This document shows positions 14,615 through 25,968 of a DNA stretch of 48,229 nucleotides, piece by piece. The stretch is from NCBI GenBank assembly GCA_017984755.1, contig JAGNYW010000021.1, positions 1 to 48,229 of the forward strand, given 5' to 3'. The translations under genes were made by a program, and so were the position numbers. Source of the DNA: Methyloversatilis sp. (GTDB lineage Bacteria; Pseudomonadota; Gammaproteobacteria; Burkholderiales; Rhodocyclaceae). The stretch's first letter is position 1. The number at the start of each line of letters is the position of its first letter. The notes below the pieces were generated by a model. The model was not told the DNA's origin. It did no database searches and saw only the letters and a program-made list of their open reading frames with translations.

Positions 14615-16663
<2,049 letters not shown>

Positions 16664-16881: not shown

Positions 16882-17007
16882 ATGATGAACGCAAGGTTAT
16901 GCCGCAGGGAAGATGCCGGCATCCGTATCCGCCGGACGCCAGCCGGAGGAATGTCCCAACCCGACCCCGTCCGGGGCTTACCCGCACCCGAGGAGCTTGA
17001 CGAATGA
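16882..17007 (+). CDS. Possible 41-codon leader ORF overlapping the sufA start
   Basis: An open frame beginning MMNARLCRRED and ending PEELDE starts 3 bp after the strong IscR-like site. Its TGA (17005-17007) overlaps the sufA ATG (17004). No ribosome site is obvious before its first ATG, whose position close to the transcription start would make it nearly leaderless. An internal ATG at 16951 follows GGAGGA without a normal spacing. It resembles no family I know. It may be a regulatory leader peptide or chance. Confidence 0.25.
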   Translation: MMNARLCRREDAGIRIRRTPAGGMSQPDPVRGLPAPEELDE

Positions 17008-17354
17008 CCATGACCTTGACCGAAAACGCGGCCCGGCAGATCCGGCGGCAGATCGACAAGCGGGGCAGCGGCATTGCGCTGCGCATCGGCATCCGGAAGG
17101 TGGGCTGTTCCGGTCTGGCGCACACCTTCGAAATCGTCGACGCGATCGCTGCGGACGACCACAGCTTCGAGTCGCACGGTGCGCGTCTGGTGCTCGACGC
17201 CGACAGCTTCGCGGCACTGGACGGATCGCACATCGACTTCGTCACCGAGGGCCTCACGCAGCGCTTCAGGTTCGACAACCCGAACGTCGCCAGCGAGTGC
17301 GGCTGCGGCGAAAGCTTCAACCTGAAGACATCGGGCGATATCGCCCAACCGTGA
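17004..17354 (+). CDS. sufA: A-type iron-sulfur carrier (IscA/SufA family)
   Basis: A 116-residue HesB/IscA protein that carries Fe-S clusters from the scaffold to target enzymes. The three conserved cysteines are in KVGCSGL and ECGCGESF near the C terminus, as in SufA/ErpA/IscA. The ribosome site GAGGAG (16990-16995) is 8 nt before ATG 17004. It is the first confident gene of the SUF operon, and sufB follows after 58 bp. Calling it sufA rather than iscA or erpA rests on its position. Confidence 0.9.
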
Positions 17355-17412
17355 TCGCTTCATCGCCGGCCCGATTTTCGTTCAGGGCGGGCAACACGCC
17401 GGAGGAATCAGC

Positions 17413-19651
<2,239 letters not shown>

Positions 19652-19655
<4 letters not shown>

Positions 19656-20971
19656 GCGCCATCACCGCAATCCGCCAGACGCCGGACGACGGCCTCGACG
19701 CGCTGCTGCTGGCCTGTCCGCAGCTGCCGCCCGGCCCGTGGGCGCACGTCAATGCACTGCGTGCGGACGGGCATGCGGAACTGAACACGCTCACCCTGCC
19801 TTCGCTGCGCGACGAAGCATGGCGCTTCACCGACCTGAAGCCGCTGACACGCATGTCGATCAAGCCGCTGCGCGCGGCCAGCCCGATTCAGGCGGCCGAC
19901 ATCGCGCAATTCGAACTGCCCGAGGCAGCGATCCGGCTGGTGTTCGTCGACGGCATCCATGCGCCGCACCTGTCCAGCAGCAGCGTCGACAACGGCGGTC
20001 TGGTGGTGGCCAACCTGCCCGAAGCGATGACCGCCGGCGCGTCGACCGTCGCAGCCCACCTCGGTCGCCATCAGGCCATTGCGGGCGACATCTTCACGGC
20101 GCTCAACAACGCCTGTCTGGCAGATGCGGCCGTCATTCTCGTCCCGCGCGACCGGGTGCTCACGGCGCCGGTACACGTGCTGTTCGTCGCGACCCGGGAA
20201 GCGGTCGTCAGCCACCCGCGCTGCCTGCTGGTGGCCGAACCGGGCAGCAGCGTGACGCTGATCGAGGACTACGCAGCCCTGCTGGATGCGCCCTACCTGA
20301 GCAATCCGCTGACCGAGATCGTGCTTGCGGAGGGTGCATCGGTCCGGCACATCCGCGTGCAGCGCGAAGGCAGCGAGGCTTTCCACATCGGCAGCGGTAC
20401 GGTATCTCTCGGTCGTTCAAGCAGTTACCAGTCGGTCAGCGTGAGCTTCGGCGCACGCATTTCGCGCTGCAGTTTCAAGGCATCGCTGGGCGAAGGCGCC
20501 GAATGCACGATGGACGGACTGGCGCTGGTCACGGGCAGCCAGCTTGCCGACACGCACAGCATCGTCGACCACACGATGCCGCACGGCACCGCCCGCCAGC
20601 TGCACAAGTGCATCGCAGGCGGAGGCGCGCGCGCAGTGTTCAACGGCCGGATCATGGTGCGCCGGGGCGCACAGCAGACCGACTCCGTGCAGATGAGCCG
20701 CAACCTGCTGCTGAGCTCGAAAGCCCGCATCGACACCCAGCCGCAGCTGGAAATCTTCGCCGATGACGTGAAGTGCGCGCACGGCGCCACCGTTGCGCCG
20801 CTCGACGAGGAAGAAGTGTTCTATCTGAACAGCCGGGGCCTGGGCGACAAGGCGGCGCGCGAGCTGCTGACCTACGCCTTCGGGGCCGAAATCATCGAAC
20901 GCATCCCTGTGGCATCGCTGCGCGGACAACTGACCCGGCACATGCTGGCGCAGACCGGAGCCCCGTCATGA
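19652..20971 (+). CDS. sufD: Fe-S cluster assembly protein SufD
   Basis: A 439-residue paralogue of SufB that completes the SufBC2D scaffold and helps iron entry. Recognisable parts are [17 protein letters not shown] at the N terminus, the beta-helix core, [20 protein letters not shown] and the C-terminal block [20 protein letters not shown], then [16 protein letters not shown]. It overlaps sufC and sufS by 4 bp each, so translation is probably coupled to keep subunit ratios fixed. Confidence 0.95.
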
Positions 20972-22242
20972 ACGCGCGCCCGAGCGGACTGGCAAGCGCG
21001 GCGACGCCTGGAGTCGTGGCAGCGGCATTCGATGTCGAGCGCATCCGCTCGGACTTCCCAATCCTGCAGCTGCAGGTCGACGGCAAGCCGCTGGTCTATC
21101 TGGACAACGCTGCGTCGAGTCAGATGCCGCAGGCCGTCATCGATCGTCTGGTTCGCTACCAGACGACGCAGCACGCGAACATCCACCGTGGCGTGCATTG
21201 GCTGTCCGAAGTGGCGACCGAGGCATACGAGGCGGCAAGGCGCACGGTGCAGCACTTCATCAATGCGGCGGACGAACGCGAAGTGATCTTCACCAGCGGC
21301 ACCACCGACGCGATCAATCTGGTGATGCATGGCTACGGCCGGAAGTTCATCAAGGCCGGCGACGAAATCATCCTGACCACGATGGAACACCACGCCAACA
21401 TCGTGCCGTGGCAGATGCTGGCGGAAGAGACCGGCGCAAACATCCGCGTGGTGCCCATCAATGACGCCGGCGAGCTGTGCCTCGAAGCGTACGAAGCACT
21501 GTTCAACCCGCGCACGCGCCTGGTCTGCGTGACCCAGGTATCGAATGCGCTGGGCACCGTCAATCCGGTCCGGCAGATGATCGCACTGGCGCACGCGCAC
21601 TGCGTGCCCGTGCTCGTGGACGGCGCCCAGGCCGTACCGCACATGGCGGTCGACGTGCAGGATCTGGACTGCGACTTCTACGTCTTTTCGGGCCACAAGC
21701 TGTGCGGCCCCACCGGCATCGGCGTGCTGTACGGCAAGGCAACCCTGCTCGAAGCCATGCGCCCCTACAAGGGCGGCGGCGACATGATCCTGTCCGTGTC
21801 TTTCGAAAAGACGGTCTACAACGTCATTCCGCACAAGTTCGAAGCCGGCACACCGCCGATCGCGGCAGCCATCGGCCTGGCGGCCGCAATGGACTATCTG
21901 TCGAGCATCGGTCTGGGAGCCATCGCGGCGCATGAGCACGCGCTGCTGCTGCACGCCACCGCGCGCCTGAGCGAGCTGCCGGGCGTGAGACTCATCGGTA
22001 CGGCGCGGGACAAGGCAGCGGTGCTCTCGTTCACGCTCGACGGCGTGCACCCGCACGACGTGGGCACGCTGCTGAGTCAGGAAGGCATCGCCGTGCGTAC
22101 CGGTCACCACTGCGCGCAGCCGGTCATGACGCGCTTCCGGCTGCCGGCGACGTCGCGGGCTTCGTTCGCCTTCTACAACACCGAGGCCGAAGTCGACGCA
22201 CTGGTCGACGGGGTCCGCGCCGTGCAGAAGGTATTCGCGTGA
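20968..22242 (+). CDS. sufS: Cysteine desulfurase SufS (group II)
   Basis: A PLP enzyme of 424 residues that takes sulfur from cysteine as a persulfide for cluster assembly. It has the substrate-pocket LDNAASSQMP, TSGTTDAINLV, MEHHANIVPWQ, the PLP lysine in FSGHKLCGPTG and the catalytic cysteine in RTGHHCAQP. The short catalytic-loop form is that of group II desulfurases. ATG 20968 overlaps the sufD stop by 4 bp. It has about 20 more N-terminal residues than E. coli SufS; a later start is possible, but the coupled one is favoured. Confidence 0.96.
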   Translation: MNARPSGLASAATPGVVAAAFDVERIRSDFPILQLQVDGKPLVYLDNAASSQMPQAVIDRLVRYQTTQHANIHRGVHWLSEVATEAYEAARRTVQHFINAADEREVIFTSGTTDAINLVMHGYGRKFIKAGDEIILTTMEHHANIVPWQMLAEETGANIRVVPINDAGELCLEAYEALFNPRTRLVCVTQVSNALGTVNPVRQMIALAHAHCVPVLVDGAQAVPHMAVDVQDLDCDFYVFSGHKLCGPTGIGVLYGKATLLEAMRPYKGGGDMILSVSFEKTVYNVIPHKFEAGTPPIAAAIGLAAAMDYLSSIGLGAIAAHEHALLLHATARLSELPGVRLIGTARDKAAVLSFTLDGVHPHDVGTLLSQEGIAVRTGHHCAQPVMTRFRLPATSRASFAFYNTEAEVDALVDGVRAVQKVFA

Positions 22243-22706
22243 TGGCCGACCACAAGGCGCTGTATCAGGAGGTCATCCTCGACCACAACAGGAAGCCGCG
22301 AAACTTCGGCACGCTGGAACACCCTAGCCACCATGCCGAAGGCCACAACCCGCTGTGCGGAGATCACATCGCCGTGGCACTCGAGCTTGCCGAGGGCCGC
22401 GTCGACCAGATCGCCTTCCAGGGCGAATCGTGTGCGATCTGCAAGGCATCGGCTTCGATGATGACGGTGGCCGTCAAGGGCAGATCGCTGGACGAGGCAC
22501 AGACCCTCACCCGGGAGTTCCTCGACATGGCCACGGGAAAGCTCGACGTCGACGCCCCCAACCACATCGGGCGGCTCGCCGTGTTCGCCGGCGTGCGCAA
22601 CCTGCCCACGCGGGTCAAGTGCGCCATCCTGCCCTGGCACACGCTGCAGGCCGCCTTCAACGCCCAGCCCAGCGTATCGACCGAGGCAGGCGATGACCGG
22701 AGCTGA
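22242..22706 (+). CDS. sufU: SufU-type sulfur acceptor/transfer protein (IscU-like fold)
   Basis: About 154 residues. The Zn-binding SufU ligands are visible: NPLCGDHI (Cys, Asp), SCAICKAS and RVKCAILPW. The region between the second and third cysteines carries the insertion typical of SufU rather than IscU, and SufU proteins accept persulfide sulfur from SufS. The operon has no sufE, so SufU most likely fills that role. Start is ATG 22242 (TGATG overlap with sufS) or GTG 22239 (GTGA overlap), which cannot be resolved. SufU is best known from Gram-positive bacteria, so its presence here is worth noting. Confidence 0.9.
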   Translation: MADHKALYQEVILDHNRKPRNFGTLEHPSHHAEGHNPLCGDHIAVALELAEGRVDQIAFQGESCAICKASASMMTVAVKGRSLDEAQTLTREFLDMATGKLDVDAPNHIGRLAVFAGVRNLPTRVKCAILPWHTLQAAFNAQPSVSTEAGDDRS

Positions 22707-22766
22707 TGCGCAGCCTGCCGCCGCGATGGAACCGGCGCCACCGCCACACCCTTCCGAATGGAAAAC

Positions 22767-23015
22767 ATGATGACCGCAGACGAATTGAGAAACCACATCG
22801 CCAATGGTCTGCCCTGCGACCACCTGCAGGTGCTGGGAGACGACGGCCAGCACTTCGAAGCGGTGATCGTGAGCCCGCAGTTCGCAGGACAGAACCGGGT
22901 TCAGCAGCACCAGCGGGTCTATCAGGCACTGGGCGACCGCATGCGCTCGGAAATCCATGCCCTGTCCCTGCGCACCTTCACGCCCGAAGCCTGGGCACAA
23001 ACCACTCGTGAATGA
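22767..23015 (+). CDS. BolA/IbaG-family protein
   Basis: An 82-residue protein of the BolA family, which forms [2Fe-2S]-bridged complexes with monothiol glutaredoxins. It has the class-II KH-like fold motifs HFEAVIVSPQFAGQNRVQQH, VYQALGDRMRSEIHALSLRT and FTPEAW. It sits directly before grxD, the expected partner. Start choice among ATG 22758, 22767 and 22770 is uncertain; GGAAA at about 22760 best serves 22767 or 22770. The gap after sufU is 60 bp. Confidence 0.9.
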   Translation: MMTADELRNHIANGLPCDHLQVLGDDGQHFEAVIVSPQFAGQNRVQQHQRVYQALGDRMRSEIHALSLRTFTPEAWAQTTRE

Positions 23016-23030
23016 CATCGGGGAATGAAC

Positions 23031-23351
23031 ATGAACATCCAGGACACCATCCGTCGGCAGATCAGTGAATCACCCGTCGTGCTCTACATGAAGGGCACGC
23101 CGCAGTTTCCGCAATGCGGCTTTTCGGGCGCCACGGTGCAGATGCTCAAGGCCTGCGGCGTGCAGCACTTCGACGCCATCAACGTGCTGGAGGATCCGGA
23201 AATCCGGGCCGGCATCAAGGCGTTCTCCAACTGGCCGACCATTCCCCAGCTCTATGTGAAGGGCGAACTGATCGGCGGCGCCGACATCGTGCGCGAGTTG
23301 CACGAGTCGGGTGAGTTGCAGACCTTGCTTGATTCAGCCCGGGCTGGATGA
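23031..23351 (+). CDS. grxD: Monothiol glutaredoxin (Grx4/GrxD type)
   Basis: A 106-residue CGFS glutaredoxin. The active motif is in QFPQCGFSGATVQML, with the glutathione-binding elements YMKGTP, WPTIPQLYV and GGADIVREL. CGFS proteins ferry [2Fe-2S] clusters, alone or with BolA. ATG 23031 is preferred over ATG 23025 because GGGGA (about 23020-23024) is 6 nt upstream of the former. It lies 15 bp after the BolA-like gene. Confidence 0.94.
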   Translation: MNIQDTIRRQISESPVVLYMKGTPQFPQCGFSGATVQMLKACGVQHFDAINVLEDPEIRAGIKAFSNWPTIPQLYVKGELIGGADIVRELHESGELQTLLDSARAG

Positions 23352-23418
23352 CATCACAGGGGTTCATGCACGGCCGCCATCCCGCATCCGGCGGCTGCGC
23401 AGGCACCAGGAGGATCGA

Positions 23419-23979
23419 ATGCCCAAGATCGCAGAAATCGACGACACACCCAATCCCAATGCGGTGAAGTTCACGCTGCACGAACCGCTGACCTGGGGTG
23501 TTTCGCATTCGTACGAAAACGCCGAGCAGGCCAGCGGGGATGCGCTGGCGTCGGCCCTGTTCGCCATCGAGCACGTGACCAACGTCTTCTATGTCGACCG
23601 GTGGCTCACCGTGACGCAGGACGGAGAGGCCGACTGGCCGGAGCTGGTCAGGCTGATCGCCGTGCCGCTGCGCGCCGCCCCGGCAGCCGCTGCACAGTCG
23701 GCAGCAGCGGTCTTTGCAGCACGCATGTCGATCGACGATCTCGATGCAGCCGACCAGGCGCGCCTCGATGCGATCAACGCCCTGCTGGACGCACAGATCC
23801 GCCCGTCACTTCAGGGCGATGGCGGAGACCTGCATGTGGTCGGCCTGTCCGGCAACCGTCTGAGCATTCACTACCAGGGCGCATGCGGTACCTGCCCGAG
23901 CTCGCTGTCGGGCACGCTGATGGCCATCGAAAATCTGGTCCGCACCCTCGAGCCGGACATGGAAGTCACAGCAGTCTGA
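23419..23979 (+). CDS. Nfu1-type Fe-S cluster carrier (Nfu N-terminal plus NifU C-terminal domains)
   Basis: A 186-residue protein. The N-terminal domain (about 1-85) has DDTPNPNAVKFTL, FAIEHVTNVFYVDRWLTVT and DWPELV, the signature of the Nfu/NFU1 N-terminal family rather than the degenerate IscA domain of E. coli NfuA. After an Ala-rich linker, the C-terminal NifU-like domain has LQGDGGDLHVVG and the cluster-binding GACGTCPSS. AGGAGG stands just before ATG 23419. It is the last gene of the SUF operon and probably delivers [4Fe-4S] clusters. Confidence 0.92.
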   Translation: MPKIAEIDDTPNPNAVKFTLHEPLTWGVSHSYENAEQASGDALASALFAIEHVTNVFYVDRWLTVTQDGEADWPELVRLIAVPLRAAPAAAAQSAAAVFAARMSIDDLDAADQARLDAINALLDAQIRPSLQGDGGDLHVVGLSGNRLSIHYQGACGTCPSSLSGTLMAIENLVRTLEPDMEVTAV

Positions 23980-24024
23980 TCGCGGCAGGCAGGTTGCGCC
24001 GGCGACGGGTGAGACAGGTCGGAA

Positions 24025-24047
24025 GGGCCGCGACATATCGCGGGCCC
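24025..24047 (+). terminator. Hairpin after the SUF operon
   Basis: GGGCC-GCGA (24025-24033) pairs with TCGC-GGGCCC around a CATA loop, with one bulged base. It is 45 bp after the nfu stop. No T-run follows. Confidence 0.4.
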
Positions 24048-24148
24048 ACCGCATTTCGTGGCTTCCCACACCCGTGAAATGTCACAGCCAAGCGCCCGAT
24101 TATTTACAACTTATTGTTTTAAAAGGGATTAAAAAAGAAGGTCGAAAC

Positions 24149-24164
24149 TGGCACGCAAGCTGCT
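24149..24164 (+). promoter_or_regulatory. Sigma-54 (-24/-12) promoter of the HES-repeat gene
   Basis: TGGCACG at 24149-24155 and CTGCT at 24160-24164 give GG and GC dinucleotides exactly 10 bp apart, matching the RpoN consensus (TGGCACG-N4-TTGCW) except for one C. The predicted start is near 24175, 66 bp before the ATG. An AT-rich stretch (24101-24140) and a small inverted repeat, GTGAAATGTCAC (24074-24085), lie upstream, where IHF and an activator would be expected. Confidence 0.7.
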
Positions 24165-24240
24165 GAAGGGAAGGCGTCGAGCACATCGCTTGAACCCGGA
24201 TCCGGGCGACGAAACAAACCAACCTTCAAGGAGCTTTACC

Positions 24241-24657
24241 ATGAACAGGATCGCAACCCTTCTGATGACCGCCGGCCTCGTGCTCTCTTCTGCTTCCTTC
24301 GCTGCAGGCGGCGCCTACACGACGCACGAATCCACCTACGAGCCGGCTTACCTGACGAGCCTCTCGAGCAACGGCGCACTGGGTGGAAGCGCCACGGCCA
24401 AGGCCCCGATCGCACACGAGTCGACGTATGACCCCGCCTTTCTGCGCGCCCTGTCCGACACCCCGGCCCGTCGCAGTGACGGCGGCCGGGTGATCGCCCA
24501 TGAGTCGATCTTCGAGCCGGGCTACATCCGAGGCATCACGGGAGACGGCATGCAGCCGGCACGAACCGCCGACGGTCCGCTGCGCACATCATCGGTCTCC
24601 TGCCCGCAGCACGAAAGCACCTTCGACGCCTGCCACCTCAAGTCGCTGCAGGGCTGA
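24241..24657 (+). CDS. Small secreted protein with four HES(T/I) repeats, unknown function
   Basis: A 138-residue protein with a clear Sec signal peptide (MNRIATLLMTAGLVLSSASF, cleavage near Ala21-Ala22). The mature part is mostly four copies of a short repeat whose His is at residues 29, 59, 87 and 124: HESTYEPAYLTSL, HESTYDPAFLRAL, HESIFEPGYIRGI and HESTFDACHLKSL. Variable linkers of 15-24 residues separate them. The last copy is flanked or interrupted by the only cysteines (121, 131), which could form a disulfide. The His-Glu-Ser core with acidic and aromatic residues could bind metal, but this is a guess. AAGGAGC stands 7 nt before ATG 24241. It is monocistronic behind a sigma-54 promoter. 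I do not recognise the family. Confidence 0.85.
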   Translation: MNRIATLLMTAGLVLSSASFAAGGAYTTHESTYEPAYLTSLSSNGALGGSATAKAPIAHESTYDPAFLRALSDTPARRSDGGRVIAHESIFEPGYIRGITGDGMQPARTADGPLRTSSVSCPQHESTFDACHLKSLQG

Positions 24658-24714: not shown

Positions 24715-25968
24715 TCAGCCGTAGCGGTGTCCCGCCACCACGGCAAGCCCGCACCCCACGCTGCCGTATAGATCACCCTCGACCGGCCGCGCGAGCGGGA
24801 AGCGGCGGGACAAGGCTTCGCGCAGCGCCGGCACCGCGCTCGACCCACCGGTGAAGAACAGCGTATCGAGCGTATCCGCGCGCACGCCGGCGTGATCGAG
24901 GCAGCGCTGGGCCGCGGCACAGACGCGTTCTATTTCGGCCGCAATCGCCGCTTCGAACTGATCACGCGTCATCGCAACCTGCAGACCCGCCTCGGCCACG
25001 TCGAGATCGAACAGGCAGCTTTCGACGTCCGACAGCTCGATCTTGGCCGCTTCCGAGCGCATCGCGATCTGGTGCCCCTTGCGTTCGCGCACCACACGCA
25101 GCAGGCGGCCGAAACGATGCGGGTCGGCCACGTCGAGCAGCATGTCCTGCAGGCCGGTAAGTACGCTGCGGTGGTAGGTCAGATGGATGGTGTGCCAGGT
25201 GGCCAGCTGGAAATACGTCGTATTGGGCACGATCGCCCCGCTCTGCATGAGGGTGCCCATGCCCAGTTCGGGCATCACGCAGGCCAGCGACAGCCGCTTG
25301 TCGAAGTCCGTGCCGCCGATGTGCACACCGCTGTTGCCGAGCAGATCGACGCTGCGATCCGTTGCGCGGCGCCGGTCGGGCGACAGGCGGACCAGTGAAA
25401 AGTCCGATGTGCCGCCGCCGATGTCGACCACCAGCGTGAGCGCCTCGCGCGTGATGGTCTGTTCGAACGCATGCGCGGCGGCGATCGGTTCGAACTGGAA
25501 GCTCACGTCGCGAAAGCCGAGCCCGCGCACGATCTGCGCCAGCGTGTCTTCCGCCAGCCGGTCGGCTTCGCTGTCGTCATCGACGAAGCGTACCGGCCGG
25601 CCCACCACGACGGAATCGAAATCACCTTTCACCTGCGTCTCGGCGCGTCGCTTCACTTCGCCGATGAAGCTGCCGATCAGGTCACGGAACGCCAGATGCC
25701 GTCCACCTACATCCGTGCCGGTCTCCATGAGGCTGCTGCCGAGCAGGCTTTTCATCGAGCGCATGAGGCGCCCTTCGTAACCATCCAGATACTCCTGAAG
25801 CGCCGCCCGCCCGTAGGCCATGGTGTTTTCCTCGACATTGAAGAAAACAGCCGAAGGCAGCGTGAGCCGTCCGTCTTCGAGCGGAAGCAGGCGCGCACCG
25901 GCGGCGTCGCTCACGGCGGCGGTGGTGTTGGACGTGCCGAAATCGATGCCGCAGGCGGTGAAGCTCAT
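24715..25968 (-). CDS. Hsp70-family chaperone-like ATPase (YegD type)
   Basis: A 417-residue actin-like ATPase of the Hsp70 superfamily. It has phosphate-1 GIDFGTSNTTAAV, phosphate-2 LVVDIGGGTSDFSL and the adenosine motif LFFTGGSSAVPAL. A characteristic insertion carries HIGGTDFDKRLS, and the protein ends soon after the nucleotide-binding domain, lacking the DnaK substrate-binding half and lid. This size and layout match YegD-like proteins, whose function is not well known. No dnaJ or grpE is nearby. The start at 25968 follows family homology (MSFTACGIDFG); its ribosome site is poor. Confidence 0.88.
   Translation of the reverse strand: MSFTACGIDFGTSNTTAAVSDAAGARLLPLEDGRLTLPSAVFFNVEENTMAYGRAALQEYLDGYEGRLMRSMKSLLGSSLMETGTDVGGRHLAFRDLIGSFIGEVKRRAETQVKGDFDSVVVGRPVRFVDDDSEADRLAEDTLAQIVRGLGFRDVSFQFEPIAAAHAFEQTITREALTLVVDIGGGTSDFSLVRLSPDRRRATDRSVDLLGNSGVHIGGTDFDKRLSLACVMPELGMGTLMQSGAIVPNTTYFQLATWHTIHLTYHRSVLTGLQDMLLDVADPHRFGRLLRVVRERKGHQIAMRSEAAKIELSDVESCLFDLDVAEAGLQVAMTRDQFEAAIAAEIERVCAAAQRCLDHAGVRADTLDTLFFTGGSSAVPALREALSRRFPLARPVEGDLYGSVGCGLAVVAGHRYG

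Follow-up and report, generated by a model that had tools for sequence, protein, structure and literature searches.

A candidate sigma-54 switch in Methyloversatilis: a membrane-anchored activator, a tandem enhancer and an exported HES-repeat protein

Analysis of 48,229 nucleotides of DNA from Methyloversatilis sp. (contig JAGNYW010000021.1 of assembly GCA_017984755.1; hereafter the window) points to a probable two-part module, in which a membrane-anchored activator, acting through an upstream enhancer (UAS) and a sigma-54 promoter, would cause a small exported protein with HES repeats to be made on demand (Table 1). Orphan secreted proteins seldom offer a handle on when they are produced: comparison here supplies a promoter, an enhancer specific to the gene and a candidate for a dedicated sensor, so that the inducing signal of the HES protein – and then its function – become testable.

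Table 1. Features of the proposed module and its surroundings (positions in the window).
Feature	Position	Strand	Remarks
Membrane-anchored sigma-54 activator gene, candidate HES regulator	14615..16663	+	682 aa
Tandem palindromic enhancer (UAS)	24028..24061	+	boxes 24028-24043 and 24046-24061; box centres separated by 18 bp; UAS end to TGG, 87 bp
IHF-like site in the enhancer-promoter interval	24107..24119	-	matches 8 of 9 specified positions; weakly supported
Sigma-54 -24/-12 promoter CTGGCACGCAAGCTGCT	24148..24164	+	GG 24150-24151, N10, GC 24162-24163
Conserved start of predicted transcript, GGAAGRCGTCGARMRC	24169..24184	+	just downstream of the -12 element
HES-repeat exported protein gene	24241..24657	+	138 aa; ATG at 24241, stop codon ends at 24657; signal peptide approximately residues 1-21, cleavage site read from sequence
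Repeat 1, HESTYEPAYL	24325..24354	+	residues 29-38
Repeat 2, HESTYDPAFL	24415..24444	+	residues 59-68
Repeat 3, HESIFEPGYI	24499..24528	+	residues 87-96
Repeat 4, HESTFDACHL	24610..24639	+	residues 124-133; Cys on both sides; window species only
yegD-like Hsp70 gene, locus marker	24718..25968	-	adjoins the activator gene in G009, G011 and G012

An earlier note on this DNA had placed HES motifs at residues 29, 59, 87 and 124 of an exported protein: the positions are correct, all four repeats fit HES[TI][YF][ED], and the reading frame is genuine. When the mature part of the protein (12.1 kDa) was shuffled 200,000 times no shuffle contained four HES motifs and none more than one, so the motif count is far above that expected from composition. 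Comparison of the window gene with four orthologs gave dN/dS values of 0.40-0.47, with dN of 0.12-0.22 for the repeats vs. 0.63-0.66 for the linkers: judged from these sequences, the frame is under purifying selection and selection is strongest on the repeats. Export, also part of the earlier reading, is supported by a hydrophobic N-terminus followed by a predicted SFA/A-type cleavage site (MNRIATLLMTAGLVLSSASFA/AGGAYTT..., where the slash is the cleavage site as read from the sequence). The count of four repeats stands for the window species alone: each of the four orthologs carries three, and a paralog in genome G012 has two full repeats plus one that lacks HES. All six HES proteins keep the His, Glu and Ser in repeats 1 and 3 without exception. 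The second repeat of the G012 paralog, although without HES, retains YDPAYLRAL, which suggests that the helix-like tail of the repeat is no less important than the histidine. An AlphaFold2 model built from six sequences was uninformative for the fold (mean pLDDT 42, a low value that comes from a six-sequence alignment and is not proof of disorder): it shows a helix in the signal peptide and another, short, at residues 65-72, directly after the D-P of a repeat.

The family appears, within what was searched, to be undescribed and so far confined to a single genus. A search of 101 genomes chosen around that of the window gave matches in 21 at E≤0.1, from which eight places in six genomes of the genus were accepted (G000, G003 in two pieces, G007, G009, G011, and G012 twice); a further 15 places with weaker E values of 0.004 to 0.1, among which L007 was screened for the motif, were left out of the count. 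Intact genes are thus present in 5 of 13 genus genomes – two of them in G012 – together with one decayed copy. Identity to the window protein is 51-57% for the orthologs and 46% for the G012 paralog. When a profile of the six intact proteins was run against a sample of 399 genomes of the order it gave no credible match beyond the genus (one other match, in G328 at E 0.001, lies inside a 779-aa frame and was not counted as a member); in a sample of 369 genomes of the class it matched only its own genome, and plasmids, phages and viral contigs yielded no credible relative. The protein reached no curated cut-off in Pfam or NCBIfam and showed no credible kinship to PHROGs or PDB sequences, which agrees with the earlier note, whose author knew of no family with such a motif. 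Nothing on the HES-repeat protein or the membrane activator turned up among the open-licence papers listed by literature searches.

Other candidate relationships were rejected. Two Lachnospiraceae loci contained none of the sought motifs in three plus-strand frames. A match to the PtrA N-terminal domain (NF041599) scored 17.3 bits against a cut-off of 31, and the aligned residues (1-29) are those of the signal peptide. Kinship with the ZraP/heavy-metal-resistance family was also discarded: a Pfam search to E 10 returned COX4_pro_2 alone, at E 0.027 and below cut-off.

The site directly upstream of the gene, which had been read as a -24/-12 promoter with GG-N10-GC spacing, is as described: it has the arrangement of a sigma-54-dependent gene, differs from YTGGCACGNNNNTTGCW at one position, and is the sole site in the window with at most one mismatch (at two mismatches there are seven sites, vs. 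6.7 expected). As a genome-wide predictor the motif alone was rejected, there being no excess above the reversed control (10 exact matches to TGGCACGN5TGCW in the window genome vs. 8). Conservation is another matter: TGGCACG-N5-TGC stands 92-105 bp upstream of the ATG in all six intact HES genes, and because it is kept in every one of them the promoter is credible, even though the motif by itself is no rarer than chance.

Upstream of the promoter, two copies of CCGCGANATNTCGCGG with an 18-bp period precede each of the six intact HES genes, matching at 24-27 of 28 specified positions. From the end of this UAS to the promoter TGG the distance is 87 bp in four of the genes and 77 bp in the remaining two, a difference of one helical turn. 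This is what a bound activator that has to face the polymerase would require, and both spacings would put the enhancer on the correct side of the helix. Across the 13 genus genomes a 31-nt pattern of the UAS had 33 matches at up to three mismatches: every one of the 12 with two or fewer belongs to an HES gene, and the remaining 21 all have three. Since the pattern was derived from the HES sites themselves, the independent part of this result is the absence elsewhere only. Single boxes gave fewer matches than the reversed control in five of five genomes and only the tandem form is therefore informative. A looser pattern gave 22 sites at up to three mismatches in the window genome, two of them being the site in the window and its counterpart on the reverse strand; the surroundings of six others (L037, L039, L042, L053, L054 and L055) were read and contained no convincing sigma-54 site. 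The IHF-like site, for which the evidence is weak, occupies a fixed place in five of the six genes (8 of 9 positions) and matches at 7 of 9 in the sixth. Taken together, conservation of the promoter, a gene-specific tandem enhancer, its helical phasing and a co-inherited activator lend good sequence-level support to the sigma-54 control proposed earlier: the HES gene is very probably sigma-54-dependent, with an enhancer of its own.

The predicted transcript begins with GGAAGRCGTCGARMRC, common to the window gene and the diverged G012 paralog (L022 1900-1915, minus strand), and this stretch may serve as a signal in the mRNA or for a regulator. Folding of five HES 5' UTRs gave z-scores of -0.39 to +0.23 and hence no structure signal, and neither Rfam nor a tRNA scan gave a match in the window.

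Evidence concerning the activator comes from its pattern of inheritance. The sensor part of the activator is present in 4 of the 13 genus genomes (G000, G009, G011 and G012) and absent from the other nine, with a weak partial match in G023, from another genus; all four genomes that have it carry an intact HES gene. The association is significant by Fisher's test (P = 0.007 for 13 genomes; P = 0.002 without G007), although the genomes are not independent. The exception is G007, which has an intact HES gene (in an assembly that is 91% complete) but neither the activator nor yegD, the latter present in the other 12 genomes: because this neighboring marker is also absent, the activator locus of G007 is probably missing from the assembly.

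Decay in G003 is the second line of evidence. An efflux outer membrane protein gene and yegD are present in this genome, and between them remain 48-55 bp of the 3' end of the activator gene. The HES gene of G003 is a pseudogene that has lost its start, promoter and UAS and is frameshifted and in two pieces. The two genes thus look to have been lost together, for which reason the orphan HES gene probably has its own sensor. In a tree of yegD – the single gene that serves here as species tree for these related genomes – G003 falls among G009, G011 and G012, while G000 stands apart with G008 and G006, neither of which has either gene. These positions of G003 and G000 argue for at least two joint changes of activator and HES gene. 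For comparison with other sigma-54 activators (EBPs), 8 of 9 EBPs of the window genome could be matched at ≥80% identity to an ortholog in G003 or G008, a control that covers 9 of the 14 other EBPs and for which 9 of 18 activator loci in G003 and 10 of 17 in G008 were compared. EBP L168 had no ortholog among the loci taken from those two genomes. On this comparative evidence the membrane activator is likely to be the regulator of the HES gene.

If instead the HES gene answers to another activator, such as PrsR of the PEP-CTERM system, then the membrane EBP is merely part of the gene content of its clade. PrsR is encoded in the window genome (TIGR02915, 622.6 bits against a cut-off of 502.6); PEP-CTERM genes are, according to PMC1569441, typically single genes behind a sigma-54 site; and TTTACA at 24104-24109 of the window equals the 3' end of PrsR motif 1 as given there. 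However, the TTTACA is not conserved in relatives, PrsR orthologs are found in both G003 and G008, neither of which has an intact HES gene, and the HES protein has no PEP-CTERM tail (its C-terminus is HESTFDACHLKSLQG). The HES UAS is, moreover, a different, tandem palindrome with no counterpart at up to two mismatches elsewhere in the 13 genomes, whereas PrsR serves many genes. Control by PrsR or another such activator is accordingly improbable, and we retain the membrane activator as the candidate.

The activator gene is one of 15 sigma-54 activator genes in the window genome. Its product is laid out as a first transmembrane helix (residues 27-45), a predicted periplasmic helical domain (46-196), a second transmembrane helix (197-215), a PAS-like domain, an AAA+ domain (371-537) and a Fis-type HTH (630-673), the two transmembrane helices corresponding to its hydrophobic segments. 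The AAA+ domain has the hallmarks of a bEBP (PF00158, 247.4 bits; GAFTGA at residue 446 and Walker A at residue 399), and the HTH exceeds the cut-off of its family (PF02954, 25.5 bits against 22). PADLOC matches are confined to the AAA+ part. The N-terminus scored below cut-off against Pfam 4HB_MCP_1 (15.9 bits against 27). An AlphaFold2 model (mean pLDDT 64) has long helices over residues 24-234, at moderate confidence, and a PAS-like sheet domain; Foldseek returned nothing at E≤0.001, and the best four-helix match was Vc1313-LBD (E 0.03, TM 0.79 by target). With a profile of the sensor and PAS parts, 23 other genomes among 399 of the order matched at E≤1e-8. Eleven of these loci were read and ten scanned (L187 was left out): nine encode GGDEF plus EAL domains and one a hybrid histidine kinase, and none has a sigma-54 domain. 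In these proteins of other families the input module is thus coupled to other outputs, and in the activator to a sigma-54 ring.

Activator and HES gene need not be neighbors, being approximately 0.4 Mb apart in G012. In G009, G011 and G012 the activator gene lies 110-312 bp from yegD; in the window the interval between the two (16913-24657) holds Fe-S assembly genes, which we take to be suf-like, and the HES gene, an arrangement that is a lineage-specific rearrangement. In G011, G009 and G012, and for the pseudogene of G003, HES instead lies between what is presumably a pseudouridine-synthase-like gene and a TonB/ExbB/ExbD/porin cluster. At L143, L145, L146 and L148 it stands just 5' of a gene for a DUF2341/laminin-G/ExbB fusion, followed by ExbD, TonB and Porin_5 (Pfam was run on L143 only, the other three being read by blastp). 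In G012 the second HES gene and an HD-domain (HD-GYP-like) gene are oriented divergently (L144 8387-9313). Both decayed loci of G003 contain GTGGGAGC or its reverse complement (L151, 1+1 copies; L148, 3+4), and copies also occur in other relatives (13+9 in L143) while the window has 0+0: these repeats may have mediated the deletions in G003.

The ORF, export signal, repeats, promoter, enhancer and phasing of the proposed module, and the co-inheritance and co-decay of its two genes, come from sequence and comparison; for what would join them – that the activator binds the UAS, which way the signal runs and what the protein does – we infer the following scheme. The activator, a one-component regulator, would read a periplasmic signal through a chemoreceptor-type helical domain and pass it via the second transmembrane helix and the PAS domain to its AAA+ ring. 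Bound to the tandem palindrome, and with the DNA bent back (perhaps with the help of IHF), it would open the sigma-54 RNA polymerase waiting at the promoter. The single target seen (two in G012) is the small exported HES-repeat protein, which would then be made on demand.

For the function of the protein our preferred, though tentative, reading is a ZraP-like periplasmic accessory of an envelope response, with HES...(E/D)Px(Y/F)(L/I) marking the starts of short ligand- or metal-binding helices and with possible feedback on the sensor. We think it unlikely that it is a dedicated periplasmic metal-binding or buffering protein with the His and Glu of the repeats as ligands, along the lines of the metal- or ligand-binding array suggested in the earlier note: the invariant residues of repeats 1 and 3 and the Cys that flank repeat 4 of the window protein would suit such a role, but His is sparse (one per approximately 30 residues), the paralog repeat described above dispenses with HES while keeping its tail, and no metal gene was identified adjoining the HES gene. 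A secreted peptide precursor, whose repeats are released as short signals for the sensor of the activator or for a neighboring cell, would account for a 10-residue unit repeated within variable linkers, for the export signal and predicted mostly disordered chain, and for the co-inherited sensor; the number of repeats nevertheless varies from two to four and no processing enzyme or cleavage motif was identified, making this quite improbable. Returning to the two-part module, it is conceivable, though speculative, that the whole constitutes a self-contained trans-envelope switch: a sensor module otherwise met on c-di-GMP enzymes and on one histidine kinase, fused to a sigma-54 AAA+ domain, with a single orphan exported target that acts on or through the sensor, by feedback or as a peptide signal. 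If the pairing is true, a membrane sensor is wired directly to sigma-54 without a two-component relay.

Three known systems invite comparison. ZraP is a small exported protein of Salmonella and E. coli, made from a sigma-54 promoter in response to an envelope signal sensed in the periplasm (PMC4987338), and the HES protein would likewise be the exported product of a predicted periplasm-sensing sigma-54 switch. In ZraSR, however, sensor and activator are two proteins, whereas here they are one; the HES protein has no detectable sequence kinship to ZraP, and zinc binding and chaperone activity are traits of ZraP. In the PEP-CTERM/PrsK-PrsR regulon (PMC1569441) genes for exported proteins stand singly, each preceded by an upstream motif and a -24/-12 site, and the regulator was found by matching phylogenetic profiles: both the gene layout and the route to the regulator resemble those described here. 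HES differs in having no PEP-CTERM tail, another enhancer motif, one or two targets and a one-component activator. Finally, the activator has in common with PAS-domain bEBPs a Fis HTH and an AAA+ domain that carries both GAFTGA and Walker A. Among Clostridiales the majority of EBP input domains are, according to PMC6615313, without transmembrane regions. The input of the activator differs from that of PAS-domain bEBPs in being a helical domain held between two transmembrane segments, and its nearest relatives, as read, are GGDEF-EAL proteins at nine of the ten loci scanned and a hybrid histidine kinase at the tenth.
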